A stretch of 64,000 nt of DNA from Tsukamurella conjunctivitidis. GTDB lineage: Bacteria; Actinomycetota; Actinomycetes; Mycobacteriales; Mycobacteriaceae. The DNA is taken from positions 241,893-305,892 of the forward strand of contig NZ_VIGX01000005.1 in the NCBI RefSeq assembly GCF_007858475.1, written 5' to 3'. The notes under the pieces were generated by a model. It was given only the letters and a program-made list of their open reading frames with translations. It searched no databases and was not told the DNA's origin. The position numbers and the translations under genes were made by a program. Below, piece after piece: positions 11,512 to 16,714 of this stretch; the first letter of the stretch is position 1; each line of letters starts with the position of its first letter.

Positions 11512-13101
11512 ATGACTTCGTCCGAGGTGGATCTGCCCGTCGTCGCCTTCGAGCCCGGCCGCTGGGGCGATCCCGCGAACCCGATGCACCTGTCCGAATC
11601 CGTGCTCGGCGCGCTCACCATGCTCGGCATCGACGGCGGCCCCGGGGAGCCCGAGCAGCCCTTCCTGATGCCGTCCCGGGTGTCGGGGCGTGCGCTCGCG
11701 GCCCTGCAGAAGACGGGTGTGACCGTCGCCACCGACGACGCTACCCGGCTCGCGCACCTGCGCGGCTTCTCCACGCCGGACCTGCTCAAGTTCCGCGCCG
11801 GCGATACCTCGGACGCACCCGACGCGGTCGTGACGCCCACGTCGGCCGACCAGGTGGCCGAGGTGCTGGCCGTCTGCGCCGCGAAGGACCTCACGCTGAG
11901 CCCGTTCGCCGGCGGCACCTCCGTCACCGGCGGCCTCGCGCCCGAGCGGAGCCGGCCCGTCGTCGCCCTCGACCTGCGCGGGCTCAGCGGCCTCCTCGCG
12001 CTGGACCCGGTCTCGCAGATCGCCACCCTCGCCGCCGGTACCCGCCTGCCGGAGGCCGAGCGTCTCCTCGCCGAGGAGGGCTTCGAGCTCGGCCACTTCC
12101 CACAGTCGTACGAGGGCGCGACCATCGGCGGCTGCGCGGTCACCCGCTCCGCCGGGCAGTCGTCCATCGGGTACGGCCGGTTCGACGAGATGGTCGTCGG
12201 GCTCACCGTCGCCACCCCGCAGGGCGACGCCGAGATCGGCACCGCTCCCAAGTCGGCGGCGGGCCCTGACCTGCGCCAGCTCTTCCTCGGCTCCGAGGGC
12301 GCCTTCGGCCTGGTCACCGCCGTCCGCGTCCGCGTGCACCCGGTCCCGACGGTCCGCCGGTTCTACGGCTGGCGCTTCCCCGACTTCGCCGCCGGCGCGA
12401 ACGCCATGCGCGTGCTCGCGCAGGGCGCCGTCCGCCCGACGGTGCTCCGCCTGTCCGACGAAGCCGAGACCGGCCTCAACCTCGCGGATCCTGGCGCCGC
12501 GGGCAAGGCCGCCGTCGGCGGCTGCCTCATGGTCGTCGGCTTCGAGGGCGACGAGCCGGACGTCGACTGTCGCGACGGCTACGTCTCCGCGCGGCTCGTC
12601 GAGCTGGGCGGAGAGTTCCTCGGCGAGGACGCGGGCGAGGCCTGGCGCACCGGCCGGTTCCGTGGCCCCTACCTGCGCGATCCGCTGCTCGACGCCGGTG
12701 CGCTGGTCGAGACGCTGGAGACCGTGACCTTCTGGTCGAACGTCGACCGGCTCAAGGCCGACGTGACCGCGGCACTCACGACGACCCTCGGCGAGCAGGG
12801 CACGCCCGCCGTGGTCATGTGCCACATCTCGCATGTCTACCCGACCGGGGCCTCGCTGTACTTCACGGTGATCTGCAAGGCGCTGGAGGACCCGCTCGCC
12901 CAGTGGGCCGCCGCCAAGGCCGCCGCCAACGCGGCGATCCGCTCGGCCGGCGCCTCGATCACGCATCACCACGCCGTCGGCACCGACCATCGCGCCACCT
13001 ACCTCGAGGAGATCGGCGACGTGCAGGTCACGGCACTGCGCGCGGTCAAGGACGCGCTGGACCCGCAGGGCGTCCTCAACCCGGGGATCCTGCTCCCGTG
13101 A
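11512..13101 (+). CDS. FAD-linked oxidase, alkyldihydroxyacetonephosphate synthase-like
   Basis: A 529-residue flavoprotein of the vanillyl-alcohol oxidase/FAD-binding-4 family. The FAD domain shows PFAGGTSVTGGLAPE (about residues 142-156), GGCAVTRSAGQSSIGYGR (about 206-223) and LGSEGAFGLVTAV (about 260-272). Near the C terminus, ASITHHHAVGTDHR (about 482-495) resembles the His-rich active-site loop of alkylglycerone-phosphate synthase, which exchanges an acyl for an alkyl chain on dihydroxyacetone phosphate. The mycobacterial counterpart is Rv2251. Glycolate oxidase GlcD is the main alternative, but the HHH loop and the lipid-gene neighbours favour the synthase-like branch. Its stop overlaps the kinase start (GTGA). 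Divergent from TetR-glpD. Confidence 0.82.
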   Translation: MTSSEVDLPVVAFEPGRWGDPANPMHLSESVLGALTMLGIDGGPGEPEQPFLMPSRVSGRALAALQKTGVTVATDDATRLAHLRGFSTPDLLKFRAGDTSDAPDAVVTPTSADQVAEVLAVCAAKDLTLSPFAGGTSVTGGLAPERSRPVVALDLRGLSGLLALDPVSQIATLAAGTRLPEAERLLAEEGFELGHFPQSYEGATIGGCAVTRSAGQSSIGYGRFDEMVVGLTVATPQGDAEIGTAPKSAAGPDLRQLFLGSEGAFGLVTAVRVRVHPVPTVRRFYGWRFPDFAAGANAMRVLAQGAVRPTVLRLSDEAETGLNLADPGAAGKAAVGGCLMVVGFEGDEPDVDCRDGYVSARLVELGGEFLGEDAGEAWRTGRFRGPYLRDPLLDAGALVETLETVTFWSNVDRLKADVTAALTTTLGEQGTPAVVMCHISHVYPTGASLYFTVICKALEDPLAQWAAAKAAANAAIRSAGASITHHHAVGTDHRATYLEEIGDVQVTALRAVKDALDPQGVLNPGILLP

Positions 13102-13979
13102 CCGGCACCGACGTCATCGCCGTCCTCAACCCGATATCCGGCGGCGGGGTCGCGCGGACGCGCTGGGCCGCCGTGGCGGACGAGCTGGCCCGCCGGGACG
13201 TCTCGACCGACGTCGTCGAGTCGACCTCGGGCACCGACGCCCGCCGGCTCGCGGAGGAGGCCGCGGCGTCCGGCGCGCTCACCGTCGCCGTCGGCGGCGA
13301 CGGCCAGATCCGCGAGGTCGCCACCGGCGTGCTGCGTGTGCCCGGGGCCCCGATGGGCATCGTCACCGCCGGCCGCGGCAACGACATGGCCCGCCACCTC
13401 CACCTGCCCGACCACCCGTCCGCTATCGCCGACGTCCTCGCCGACGGTAGGCGCGCGGATCTCGACGTGCTCACCGTCGGCGGCGAGATCGCCGTCGGGA
13501 ACGTCTACGTCGGCCTCGACTCCGTGGCCACCGAACTCATCAACCGGCTCCGCTGGATGGGGCCGCTCGCATACCGGCTCGCGCCGGCCATCGCCGCGTT
13601 GCGCTGGAAGCCCGCCGGCTTCCGCATCGAGGTCGACGGTTCCGTCCACGAGGGCCCGGTCCACATGGTGATCGTCGCGAACTCCGGCTGGTACGGCAGC
13701 GGGCTCCACATGGTTCCGGCCGCCTCGTCCGACAACGGCCGCATCGACGTGCTCGCCGTCGACGGTGCCGGCAACAAGCTCAAGCTCATCAGCGCGATGG
13801 GGGAGGCCAAGACGGGCTCGCACGTCGCGCGGGCCGAGGTGCTCACCTTCAGCGGGCAGGAGGTCGTGGTCAGCGCCGACCGCCCCATCCCGGTCCACGC
13901 CGACGGCGACTACCTGCAGGAGCTGCCCGTCACGGTCGGCATCCGGAAGGCCGTGCTCCCGGTTCTCGTGCCCCGCTGA
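13098..13979 (+). CDS. Diacylglycerol/lipid kinase (DagK family)
   Basis: A 293-residue lipid kinase of the DagK/YegS family that phosphorylates diacylglycerol or a related lipid with ATP. Nucleotide-binding motifs are LNPISGGGVARTRW near the N terminus and AVGGDGQIREVATG (about residues 63-76), with GRGNDMARHL (about 92-101) typical of the family. The GTG at 13098 overlaps the preceding stop by 4 bases and is the only start that gives the normal N terminus. The M. tuberculosis orthologue by position, Rv2252, is reported as a diacylglycerol kinase linked to phosphatidylinositol mannoside synthesis. Probably works with the flavoprotein in glycerolipid metabolism. Confidence 0.88.
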   Translation: MTGTDVIAVLNPISGGGVARTRWAAVADELARRDVSTDVVESTSGTDARRLAEEAAASGALTVAVGGDGQIREVATGVLRVPGAPMGIVTAGRGNDMARHLHLPDHPSAIADVLADGRRADLDVLTVGGEIAVGNVYVGLDSVATELINRLRWMGPLAYRLAPAIAALRWKPAGFRIEVDGSVHEGPVHMVIVANSGWYGSGLHMVPAASSDNGRIDVLAVDGAGNKLKLISAMGEAKTGSHVARAEVLTFSGQEVVVSADRPIPVHADGDYLQELPVTVGIRKAVLPVLVPR

Positions 13980-13991
13980 GGCCCCGGTACT

Positions 13992-14041
13992 GGTCTTCGG
14001 TCACGAACTGTTGTCCTCAGAGCTCTTCGTGACCGAAGACC
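13992..14041. repeat. 50-base palindrome, copy 1, downstream of the DUF559 gene
   Basis: Perfect 16-bp inverted repeat (13992-14007 and 14026-14041) around an 18-base loop. The arm contains TCTTCGGTCACGAA. Copy 2, at 14958-15003, has the same arm core and a loop of the same length that is identical at 14 of 18 positions, in the same orientation. Copy 1 lies 6 bases after the DUF559 stop and 12 bases after the dagK stop, so it could also end both transcripts. Confidence 0.85.
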
Positions 14042-14047
14042 GTCGTC

Positions 14048-14968
14048 CTACGCCGCGCGGCGGCCGAGAGTTTCAGCGACGGTGGTGATCACGCCCTCGG
14101 GATCTTCGTTGAGGTGGTGCCACGAGAAATTCAGCACCGACCAGCCCGCCGACGTGAGCGCGTTCGACTTGTCCTGGTCCCGCATCCACCGCGCCCGGGA
14201 CCGGTGGAACGCCCAGCCGTTGATCTCGACGGCCAGCTTCGACTCCGGAAACGCGAAGTCCACCGCCCAGCCGCGGAACGGAAGCTGTGCGTACCACCCG
14301 GTGATCCCGTGCAGTTGCAGGAGCTCGAGGAACATCCGCTCGGCCTCGGACTCGGTCTGGCCGGCCGCGACATTGAAGATCGCGCGGGCCTCGACGATTC
14401 CGCGCGACTTCGCGTTGCGCTCCAACGCGGATTCGAGGTCGTCCAGGTTCACCACCTCCGTCTGCAGCGCACGATCCATGATCCGCGCGTCGCAGACCTC
14501 GAGCACGCTGAGCGGTTTGCCGGTCACGGACAGCCCGTCGACCTGCACGATGTCGGCCGGATCCAGCCACCTGCGGCGTGTCTCGATGCGGTAGCCGGCG
14601 GCCTGGCGGAGCCGCCGCTCGGGCGGGACAGTGACGGTTACGGTCTCGGGCGGGGCGTTCACCACGCCGTGCCAGTACAGGGCGGTCGTCCGGTCCGCCA
14701 CGCCGCCCGCGAGGATCACCGCGACCCGCACGCCCGTCCGATCGGTGTGGGGATGGTGCCTCGTCCGGAACAGGCCCCGGGTGATCCGCACCAGTTCACC
14801 TGATGCCAGCCGCGCGCGGATCGCGGTGTCAGTGAGCCCGGCGCCCCTGAGCTGGTCCAATGTCGCGATGCCGTCCTGGGCGGCGAAAACCTCCGCTGCT
14901 TTCGTCCACATATCAATTGGACGCATCAGCGCGGCTTCCAGTTCCGAACGTCGTCGTTCTTCGGTCAC
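14048..14968 (-). CDS. DUF559-type nuclease-fold protein with AbiEi-like N-terminal domain
   Basis: A 306-residue protein with two visible parts. The N-terminal half (about residues 25-90) includes GIATLDQLRGAGLTDTAIRA and LVRITRGLFRTR, a winged-helix segment typical of AbiEi-type antitoxin-like proteins. The C-terminal part (about 215-300) carries RGWAVDFAFPESKLAVEING, then WMRDQDKSNALTSAGWSVL, the DUF559/Vsr-like PD-(D/E)XK fold in which D of VDFAF and E of AVEING would bind metal. Role unknown; no toxin partner is adjacent. The longest frame starts with GTG at 14968, inside palindrome copy 2; ATG at 14926 is a good alternative. The gene is bracketed by two copies of the same palindrome, which suggests it may have moved as a unit. 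Confidence 0.72.
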   Translation of the reverse strand: MTEERRRSELEAALMRPIDMWTKAAEVFAAQDGIATLDQLRGAGLTDTAIRARLASGELVRITRGLFRTRHHPHTDRTGVRVAVILAGGVADRTTALYWHGVVNAPPETVTVTVPPERRLRQAAGYRIETRRRWLDPADIVQVDGLSVTGKPLSVLEVCDARIMDRALQTEVVNLDDLESALERNAKSRGIVEARAIFNVAAGQTESEAERMFLELLQLHGITGWYAQLPFRGWAVDFAFPESKLAVEINGWAFHRSRARWMRDQDKSNALTSAGWSVLNFSWHHLNEDPEGVITTVAETLGRRAA

Positions 14969-15003
14969 GAACCGTCGTTCTCAGAGCCCTTCGTGACCGA
15001 AGA
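14958..15003. repeat. Palindrome copy 2, at the 5' end of the DUF559 gene
   Basis: Inverted repeat with 14-bp perfect arms (14958-14971 and 14990-15003) and an 18-base loop closely like that of copy 1; loop differences are four C/T changes. The left arm contains the GTG at 14968 that opens the DUF559 frame, so the first residues of that frame (TEERR) are encoded by repeat sequence. The distance from copy 1 start to copy 2 end is 1012 bases. Confidence 0.85.
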
Positions 15004-15082: not shown

Positions 15083-16714
15083 TTAGACGATCGCGGCGCG
15101 CAGCGTATCCAGGCCCATGCCGCCGAGCGCGAGGGCGTCGCGGTGGAAGTCCTTGATCGTCGATCCCGGGTGCGCACTGAGGTAGGCGTCGCGGGTCTGC
15201 TGCCACACGCGCTGGCCCACCGAGTACGACGGCGCCTGCCCGGGCCAGCCGAGGTAGCGGTGGTACTCGAAGCGCAGCTGCTCGTCCGACATGGCGACGT
15301 GCGAGCGGAGGAAGGACCAGCCCTTGTCGTAGGTCCATGCTCCTCCGCCCAGCTCGGCGGGCGCCTCGAAGCCGCAGTGCACGCCGATGTCGAGCACCAC
15401 GCGGGCCGCGCGGAGCCGCTGCGAGTCGAGCATGCCCATGAGATCGCCGTCGTCGTCCAGGAACCCCAGGTCGCGCATCAGGCGTTCGGCGTACAGCGCC
15501 CAGCCCTCGCCGTGGCCCGAGGTGAACGAGTAGAGCCCCCGCCAGCGGTTGAGCGGCGCGATCACGGCCTGCCCGATCTGCAGGTGATGGCCGGGCACGC
15601 CCTCGTGGTAGACGGTCGTCTTCTCCTGCCAGGTGTGGAACTCGGTGACGCCGGGCGGCACGGACCACCACATCGATCCCGGGCGCGTGAGGTCCGCGGA
15701 CGGGCCGGTGTAGTAGATGCCGCCATTGCTGCTCGGCGCGATCCGGCAGTCCAGGTGATGCAGCTCGGCGGGGATGTCGAAGTGCGTGCCGGCGAGCGCG
15801 GCCACCGACTCGTCCGACGTGCGCTGCATCCACTCGCGCAGGGCTTCGGTGCCCTGCAGCACGTACCGCGGCTCGGTGTCGAGCTTCGCCAAGGTCTCCG
15901 CGACCGTCGCGCCCGGGTACAGGCGGGCCGCCACCTCGTTCTGTTCGGCGACGATCGACGCGAGGAGCTCCTGCCCCCATGCGTAGGTCTCCGCCAGATC
16001 GACGGCGGTGCCCAGGAACAGTCGCGAGTACAGTGGGTAGAGCTCGCGACCGACGCCGAGGCCGCCCGGCTGGTCCACCGGGATCGCCGAGGGCGCGATC
16101 TCCGCCTCCAAGACCTCCGCGAACCGCGCGAAGGCCGCCCGGATCTCGTCGGTGAGGCCGGGCGCGGCGTCCATCGCCCGCTCGGCGTTGGCGGCGACCT
16201 GCTCGCCCGCCTCGCGGGCCTGGGCGATCACTTCCCGGACCTGCAGCGCGGGGAACGGCCAGGAGCCGTCGGCGAGGCGGGCGCGCAGGCCCGAGATCGC
16301 CGACTCGAGCGCCTGCGGCACGGCTGCCAGGCGTGGCGCGAGGCGCGGGTCACCGTCGGGCATGAGGTCGAAGACGTCGCGGATCGCCTGCAACGGCGAG
16401 GCGATCACGTTGAGGTCGCCGACGATCCGCCCGGCGTCGGCGAGCTCGATCTCCACGCCGAGGCGCTCGCGCAGCGCGTCCGCGGTCACCCGGTCGGCGT
16501 CCGATTCCGGTGCCAGCGACGCCAGTTCGGCGAGCGTCTCGCGCGCGACCTCGACCCGGGCGGCGACGCCGGCGGGGGAGAAGTCGGTGAGCCGATCGTC
16601 GAAGTCCGTGATCCCCACCGCGGTCGCCTCGATCGGATCGACCTCGGCGAGCCGCAGGGCAAGCCGGTCCGCGAGGGCGTCGATCGGCGTGGAGGTGTGA
16701 GTGGTGTCAGCCAT
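15083..16714 (-). CDS. DUF885 family protein, predicted zinc peptidase
   Basis: A 543-residue DUF885 protein, a family often annotated as putative lipoprotein or metallopeptidase. The zinc-binding type signature HEGVPGHHLQIG is near residue 370, preceded by TVY and followed by SGHGEGWALYAERL (about 395-410), which supplies a further Glu. No signal peptide is seen; the N terminus is polar and the whole protein is likely cytosolic. The ATG at 16714 is the first suitable start. Substrate unknown; a role in peptide cleavage is inferred from the HEXXH-like motif. It stands alone, downstream of two membrane-protein genes on the same strand. Confidence 0.82.
   Translation of the reverse strand: MADTTHTSTPIDALADRLALRLAEVDPIEATAVGITDFDDRLTDFSPAGVAARVEVARETLAELASLAPESDADRVTADALRERLGVEIELADAGRIVGDLNVIASPLQAIRDVFDLMPDGDPRLAPRLAAVPQALESAISGLRARLADGSWPFPALQVREVIAQAREAGEQVAANAERAMDAAPGLTDEIRAAFARFAEVLEAEIAPSAIPVDQPGGLGVGRELYPLYSRLFLGTAVDLAETYAWGQELLASIVAEQNEVAARLYPGATVAETLAKLDTEPRYVLQGTEALREWMQRTSDESVAALAGTHFDIPAELHHLDCRIAPSSNGGIYYTGPSADLTRPGSMWWSVPPGVTEFHTWQEKTTVYHEGVPGHHLQIGQAVIAPLNRWRGLYSFTSGHGEGWALYAERLMRDLGFLDDDGDLMGMLDSQRLRAARVVLDIGVHCGFEAPAELGGGAWTYDKGWSFLRSHVAMSDEQLRFEYHRYLGWPGQAPSYSVGQRVWQQTRDAYLSAHPGSTIKDFHRDALALGGMGLDTLRAAIV

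Follow-up and report, generated by a model that had tools for sequence, protein, structure and literature searches.

An AbiEi-DUF559 gene flanked by matching palindromes recurs at many sites in Tsukamurella, Mycobacterium and related genera

The window, the whole stretch of 64,000 nucleotides of Tsukamurella conjunctivitidis DNA that was analysed, contains a small gene that is bracketed by two palindromes and located between two neighbours that converge upon each other. The features of the locus are the following:

13098..13979, forward strand: diacylglycerol-kinase-like gene, convergent neighbour outside the cassette (Pfam DAGK_cat 3.2e-23, YegS_C 2e-35)
13992..14041, no strand: first palindrome (copy 1), on the downstream side of the cassette, with 16-bp arms and an 18-nt loop (from sequence, genome count and folding)
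14048..14911, reverse strand: gene of the cassette (287 aa), in which a DUF559 nuclease-like domain is joined to an AbiEi-type N-terminal part (Pfam, PADLOC and PDB sequence matches)
14069..14356, reverse strand: DUF559 domain, residues 186-281 (Pfam and alignment)
14765..14896, reverse strand: AbiEi_4 domain, residues 6-49, predicted to bind DNA (Pfam)
14916..14945, reverse strand: conserved motif GGAAC-N17-CGTCCAAT, promoter-like, followed immediately by the ATG of the leaderless gene (motif scan)
14958..15003, no strand: second palindrome (copy 2), on the upstream side of the cassette ahead of the promoter, with 14-bp arms (same basis as copy 1)
15083..16714, reverse strand: DUF885 gene, convergent neighbour outside the cassette (Pfam PF05960 7.9e-139)

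The coordinates, arms, loops and orientation of the two near-identical palindromes are as the sequence-only reading had described them. Copy 1 starts 6 nt past the stop codon of the cassette gene, the arm core TCTTCGGTCACGAA is common to both copies, and the 18-nt loops are identical at 14 of 18 positions and have the same orientation (the flanks align with a score of 39 direct versus 29 inverted). The two-arm pattern occurs twice in the window and in 0 of 100 dinucleotide shuffles. A search of all 343 contigs of the genome (5.07 Mb), with up to 3 mismatches allowed, located the palindrome at two places only, both flanking the DUF559 gene. The genome count and the shuffles rule out a chance origin of the pair. 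Genome-wide copies standing apart from DUF559 genes, which had been named as an outcome fatal to the cassette idea, were not encountered here, as 2 of 2 copies flank the gene. Folding as RNA yielded -28.4 kcal/mol (z -5.5) for copy 1 and -25.8 kcal/mol (z -3.3) for copy 2, and a scan of six loci for known RNA families returned nothing beyond a tRNA. No second gene was seen between the palindromes, and a Pfam scan of the gene and its two neighbours revealed no transposase, in agreement with the earlier description of a single gene without one.

The same reading had placed the start of the gene at a GTG inside copy 2, which is probably wrong. The gene probably begins with the ATG at 14911, since the GGAAC-N17-CGTC motif, presumably ECF-sigma-like, ends just ahead of it and is conserved across related loci; with this start, copy 2 does not lie over the beginning of the gene, as had been proposed, and stands upstream of the promoter-like motif. 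Among 19 loci of the genus, counting the window, 18 have CGTCYAAT at a distance of 12 nt from a following ATG or GTG; the exception, L079, is a broken copy. By eye, GGAAC precedes it in 17 of those 18 loci (exception L080).

Pfam assigns both DUF559 (2.7e-9) and AbiEi_4 (3.6e-9) to the window gene, and among 50 members of the family the two domains are present in 49 and 46, respectively; the six Pfam families listed for these 50 members include no transposase domain (no Y1 HUH). PADLOC matches residues 7-166 with AbiEi models and residues 191-269 with a homing endonuclease model. In the 50-sequence alignment E191, D218, H236 and D245 are invariant and E229 is conserved in at least 90%. The corresponding profile matched PDB entries 3hrl (2.4e-12), 3r3p (a mobile intron protein, 2e-6) and 6y8q/9hlo (Abi proteins, 3.6e-5). 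Entry 3r3p is, we assume, I-Bth0305I, an EDxHD endonuclease; in the alignment to its chain E191, E229 and D245 correspond to E, E and D, and D218 and H236 to N and A. The dN/dS values of 0.07-0.26 across 14 pairs indicate purifying selection, which would also fit a useful host gene and is counted against a cassette. The partial correlation between palindrome and protein part was 0.08-0.10 for the N-terminal part and 0.19 for the nuclease part.

The arrangement is not confined to the window. In its own genome Pfam detects DUF559 at 8 places, and three of the seven other genes (L006, L007 and L009, with upstream-downstream scores of 47, 25 and 22) carry matching palindromes at both ends by eye; CGTCYAAT likewise precedes the ATG in L006 and L009. 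The remaining four scored 14 (L004), 15 (L005), 14 (L008) and 23 (L010), the last without a strong palindrome. Within 1.264 Mb of this genome (60 stretches and the window) the palindrome types of L006 and L009 occur exactly twice each, both times at their own gene, and that of L007 once by arm pattern, its other copy being diverged. Just past the stop codon of fadD in the same genome (L264), a sequence resembling half of an L009-type palindrome (GGTGCGTGTCGGCGACGACACGCCG) was noticed, perhaps a relic; the full L009-type two-arm pattern is absent from this stretch (L378/L379).

Relatives of the cassette protein are present in 16 of 16 genomes of the genus, the full-length ones being 35-76% identical. 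Inspection by eye of 18 loci of the genus besides the window revealed palindromes on both sides, with arms agreeing within the element, in 12 (L060, L061, L063, L066, L067, L068, L069, L070, L071, L072, L076 and L078), palindromes on the left side only in L073, L074 and L075, and none in L077, L079 and L080. The arms differ between elements: GGTCACGAA is found in G000 (the window genome), G188, G125 and G070, GGTCATCCG or GGTCATTCG in G158 and G137, TGCGGTGGAT in G100 and G168, and GTGGTCGAT in G137 and G070. Across 301 genomes of the family, with up to 3 mismatches allowed, the window-type palindrome was detected in 7. Four of these, all with a cassette that matches the window's at 71% identity or more, belong to the genus, and the three others show 3 mismatches each.

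Several side observations were made in the genus. The sister-species copy at the window site in G188 (L060, about 4590; also L102) is 96% identical and split into two frames at a C run, owing to a frameshift or a sequencing error. In different Tsukamurella species the same intergenic site harbours cassettes in opposite orientations with different arms (L070/L071 versus L072/L078). A metagenome bin titled Acidobacteriaceae bacterium BOG_194 (G198; L107, L110, L121) contains cassette genes and groups with the genus of the window, and its title looks mistaken. In the same bin a short palindrome, GAGGTCACGAACTC-AGAA-GAGTTCGTGACCTC, adjoins a tRNA-like sequence (L082, 5035-5068), with no cassette gene nearby.

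For a wider sample, chosen by protein, an alignment of 16 homologues retrieved 173 relatives, of which the best 80 were taken; these loci derive from Tsukamurella, Gordonia, Mycobacterium/Mycolicibacterium, Rhodococcus and others, and with three more, 83 elements were measured. An inverted-repeat score of at least 10 was reached upstream in 55, downstream in 33 and on both sides in 24 of the 83, as compared with 31, 54 and 5 of 415 control ORFs from the same loci. The best local alignment between upstream and downstream flank had a median score of 24 within and 13 between elements, and scores of at least 20 were obtained for 49 of 83 elements versus 71 of 1636 between-element pairs. Unrelated flanks, part of the second outcome named beforehand as speaking against a cassette, are therefore not what was found. 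The two flank copies occur in direct as well as in inverted relative orientation. GGA(A/G)C-N15-18-CGTC stands near the start in 74 of the 80 loci, with a spacer of 17 in 59, versus 15 of 417 control ORFs, and the 24 elements with both palindromes called measure 846-1083 bp. As read from these alignments, the unit is about 1 kb and consists of a palindrome, a putative GGAAC-N17-CGTC promoter, a leaderless AbiEi-DUF559 gene and a second palindrome.

The flanks (blastn, 1 kb) group 84 elements into 29 clusters, an upper estimate of the number of sites because diverged flanks may split one site. In the trios L126/L174/L179 and L136/L143/L144 the proteins are 84-89% identical and the flanks lack similarity. 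Conversely, in 26 of 33 pairs of elements at the same site the nucleotide identity of the element was below that of both flanks, in 16 of them by at least 8 points; in the other 7 the element was not less similar than both flanks, which we count against exchange. In 9 of 14 hand-picked pairs the dS of the element exceeded all flank values listed. The pair L134/L172, with flanks 96 and 95% identical, shows a dS of 0.94 for the element and of 0.14, 0.10, 0.13 and 0.48 for the flanking ORFs, and it is a mosaic, with a dS of 2.0 (capped) in the N-terminal and 0.18 in the C-terminal part. Among five aligned exchange pairs, the divergence runs from one palindrome to past the other in two (L146/L147 and L103/L106); in L134/L172 it extends from the left palindrome to inside the gene, and in L152/L155 the right edge similarly lies inside the gene, both of which are counted against the cassette; the fifth pair, L104/L106, shows no clear edges. 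The element thus appears often to have been exchanged independently of its neighbours at common sites.

Empty and partly filled sites were compared at three places. At the window site, 12 of the 15 genomes tried were readable. The DUF885 gene was matched in 16 of 16 genomes of the genus and adjoins the diacylglycerol-kinase-like gene in 12 of 15 genomes tried. Only two genomes (G000 and G188) are occupied, so that most relatives lack the gene at this site, contrary to the other part of that second outcome. The spacer is at most 40 bp in 7; G207 (L086) and G070 (L090) contain a different long hairpin with arms near ACATCNTTCGARGCNTTCTGCG and no cassette, and G168 other sequence. Gene and cassette palindrome are both absent in 7 of the 12, which we count against the cassette. 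The fadD site is occupied in 4 of 16 genomes, and 6 others carry GC-rich hairpins (by eye) in the absence of the cassette; G000, G188 and G207 have other sequence, and G178 and G198 are not comparable. A single solo palindrome of the G158 type is found at this site in G113, where the right-hand gene differs from that at occupied sites, again counted against. The third place is the 3' end of a gene that we take to be leuS. Here, L127, L140, L160, L164, L317 and L318 contain the cassette, and G301 contains a single palindrome 1 nt past the stop codon, as judged from five matches per side among those listed. Of 56 solo sites, four have some flank in common with an occupied site and only one, at leuS, corresponds to the exact place on both sides, which is counted against; L215 matches on both sides, but more than 1 kb from the cassette. 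No target-site duplication was evident by eye at the sites compared, in species too diverged for a sharp comparison.

Carriage by phages or plasmids was considered and rejected: with the Mycobacterium protein of L179 as query, 0 matches were obtained among 50,697 phage records at E 1e-10 and one among 72,556 plasmid records at E 1e-20, namely 'plasmid 12' of T. tyrosinosolvens. The latter (L319) contains a palindrome-flanked cassette together with chromosomal-looking genes (pntB and others). Among viral contigs 40 pattern matches were obtained, none of which was confirmed, and the DNA encoding the window protein had no near match in plasmids.

In Mycobacterium the palindromes are dispersed. 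The family GATTTGTG-N16-46-CACAAATC was detected in 17 of 20 genomes, picked via loci of the protein-based sample, with 2 to 34 exact copies each, and a survey of 148 Mycobacterium genomes, 7 of which overlapped the earlier list, raised the maximum to 51 exact copies per genome. Most copies listed are 49 nt in length, and in G310, G307, G301 and G318 the gene lies between paired copies at a spacing of about 0.95 kb. Of 52 solo palindromes, 43 adjoin the stop codon of a long reading frame on at least one side and 26 do so on both, as compared with 159 and 6 of 2080 random 49-mers. Different, compensatory pair types give 97 distinct 49-mers more pairing than expected at positions 9-13 and 17-20, with little excess at 14-16, positions 1-8 being set by the search pattern and kinship being ignored. 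For the 52 solo copies, the gene-linked palindrome of the own genome was the best match in 23.7 (ties split) versus 5.4 expected. G301 has two cassette genes with different palindrome subtypes, each of which has solo copies; a third subtype there is without a matching gene, which we count against a link.

Of the 148 genomes, 42 contain the palindrome family and 67 the gene (cut-off E 1e-20): both are present in 40, the palindrome only in 2, the gene only in 27 and neither in 79 (Fisher p 8.5e-16, kinship ignored). The gene is thus present in 40 of 42 palindrome-bearing versus 27 of 106 palindrome-free genomes, which ties the palindromes to DUF559 genes in the relatives as well; the two exceptions, G360 with 4 copies and G365 with one short match, are counted against the association. 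In the 30 best gene matches, an upstream inverted repeat scored at least 10 in 28, the GGAACC motif was present in 29, and a downstream repeat scored at least 13 in 5 only. Flank scores of at least 20 were reached in 10 of 30 within versus 48 of 288 between elements (medians 16.5 versus 14), a small excess that we attribute to frequent loss or divergence of the downstream copy and to arm types common to several elements. Moreover, 19 of 91 match rows from Mycobacterium show one in-frame stop, and four further rows are pieces of two split copies (hand count), a share of broken gene copies that, judged without comparison genes, is high.

Taken together, the genome comparisons show gene and palindromes co-occurring at many sites and exchanged at common ones, the palindrome varying with the lineage of the gene, and this unit has the look of a cognate enzyme-target pair. 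The idea of the sequence-only reading, a small cassette that may travel together with its palindromes, fares well in that it outlasted both outcomes named against it and the arrangement recurs across relatives, and less well in the small excess among the 30 Mycobacterium matches. Our main reading, in which a nuclease cassette and its cognate palindromes spread jointly in a homing-like or RAYT/REP-like manner, we give slightly under an even chance. A more specific version can be advanced only tentatively, as possible but rather less than evenly probable: a new class of autonomous one-gene element in the Mycobacteriales, in which the AbiEi part guides the DUF559 nuclease to the element's own palindromes of 40-60 bp, with homing into gene ends in either orientation and solo palindromes seeded in some genomes; this would amount to a REP-like system built on an unrelated enzyme. 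In the main reading, the AbiEi-like part would bind the palindrome of its own cassette, the nuclease would cut at or near it, and when the break is repaired from the cassette and its palindromes, the cassette would be copied into or between gene-end sites; in Mycobacterium, copying may also leave or seed solo palindromes, in resemblance to RAYT/REP. What favours homing-like copying is the likeness of the nuclease domain to a homing endonuclease and the replacement of alleles at fixed sites, together with exchange edges that in some pairs lie at palindromes and a leuS site that exists in both solo and occupied form. Insertion would be cheap for the host because the sites lie just past stop codons, often between convergent genes, where the palindromes could terminate transcription from both sides.

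Other readings account for parts of these data. Simply dispersed terminators, the alternative offered at the outset, are ruled out in the form without a tie to the gene by the flank matching and the co-occurrence in Mycobacterium; a terminator role as such is retained because solo palindromes abut gene ends (43/52), and termination, if it occurs, would explain this placement. It is on the whole unlikely that the palindromes are insulating bidirectional terminators which shield a stress-induced AbiEi-nuclease gene for defence or stress, with alleles swapping by homologous recombination. The position of solo copies at stop codons, often on both sides, the hairpins in six cassette-free species at the fadD site, the AbiEi matches of PADLOC and the purifying selection all agree with it, yet terminators need no common sequence, and arms are often common to both palindromes of an element and distinct from those of other elements; nor would terminators track the presence of the gene or keep to 49 nt in most Mycobacterium copies listed.

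A division of labour as in REP/RAYT, in which a resident nuclease mobilises short palindromes as non-autonomous elements and the gene itself moves rarely, we regard as improbable. It draws on the up to 51 exact copies in Mycobacterium genomes, on the excess of best matches to the own genome's palindrome and on the two genes of G301 with solo copies of each subtype, but the window genome has no solo copy of its window-type palindrome nor, within the 1.264 Mb, of two other types, the 50 members lack a transposase domain, and the third subtype of G301 has no matching gene. Least probable, and in our view a distant candidate, is that the palindromes are operators, bound by the AbiEi part to regulate its own promoter, with a second copy downstream. 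The upstream repeat of 28 of the 30 Mycobacterium matches, close to the GGAACC motif, and the rarity of a strong downstream one (5/30) are in line with this, as is the binding of AbiEi antitoxins to inverted repeats in their own promoters described in parts of PMC7319586; operators leave the matching downstream copies, the solo copies at gene ends and the compensatory pairing in solo copies unexplained.

In mycobacteria and related groups the arrangement recurs with palindrome sequences of their own, and this points to what may be a very small mobile cassette of a kind not recognised before. Dispersed bacterial palindromes are best known from one class of enzymes, the RAYT transposases. Here, a different protein, composed of an antitoxin-like DNA-binding part and DUF559, goes with palindromes of its own in many genomes. 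Should the proposed spreading be correct, it would suggest a function for DUF559, a domain of unknown function, and show another way for REP-like repeats to come about, and it would provide many natural enzyme-target pairs of differing sequence for direct tests. Among open-licence PMC papers no title on DUF559 concerned such cassettes and nothing on REP/RAYT in Mycobacterium was found, which does not establish absence from print; the text of PMC3733652 does not contain mycobacter-, actinobacter-, gordonia or rhodococc-.

The cassette shares features with several known systems. Classical insertion sequences differ from it in that it carries no transposase gene (Pfam, 50 members). Elements of the IS200/IS605 family consist of one gene between terminal hairpins, as does the cassette, which differs in having no Y1 transposase and two ends with a common arm sequence. 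With the AbiE type IV toxin-antitoxin systems (AbiEi, Rv2827c) it has in common the N-terminal AbiEi part and, going by parts of PMC7319586, inverted repeats near the promoter; it differs by the C-terminal fusion to DUF559 and the additional palindrome downstream, and no AbiEii nucleotidyltransferase toxin gene lies next to the window gene, whose neighbours are diacylglycerol-kinase-like and DUF885 genes. RAYT/REPtrons, as described in sections of PMC3733652 and PMC8266576, consist of a single enzyme gene flanked by palindromes, with cognate palindromes dispersed in intergenic DNA. The cassette gene is likewise flanked by palindromes that are dispersed in Mycobacterium, although the window's genome has no scattered copies of the window type; its enzyme is an AbiEi-DUF559 protein and not a Y1 HUH transposase, and exact copies do not exceed 51 per genome. 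The RAYT/REP comparison is therefore apt as an analogy and not as membership, given the lack of a Y1 transposase and of a GTAG tag: none of 62 upstream and none of 35 downstream palindromes carried GTAG or CTAC at an end, and one of the 62 upstream ones had it within 6 nt of an end. From homing endonuclease genes the cassette differs in lying outside introns, inteins and phages, in being flanked by palindromes and in its AbiEi-type N-terminal part, and homing itself is here our interpretation of the sequence comparisons. Like I-Bth0305I and other free-standing homing endonucleases, it combines a small nuclease, similar in its domain to 3r3p (2e-6), with a DNA-binding part, and like homing endonuclease genes it is apparently exchanged at common sites. 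In addition, I-Bth0305I is described in PMC3943268 as forming a dimer on a target almost 60 bp long, a size close to the length of the cassette palindromes.
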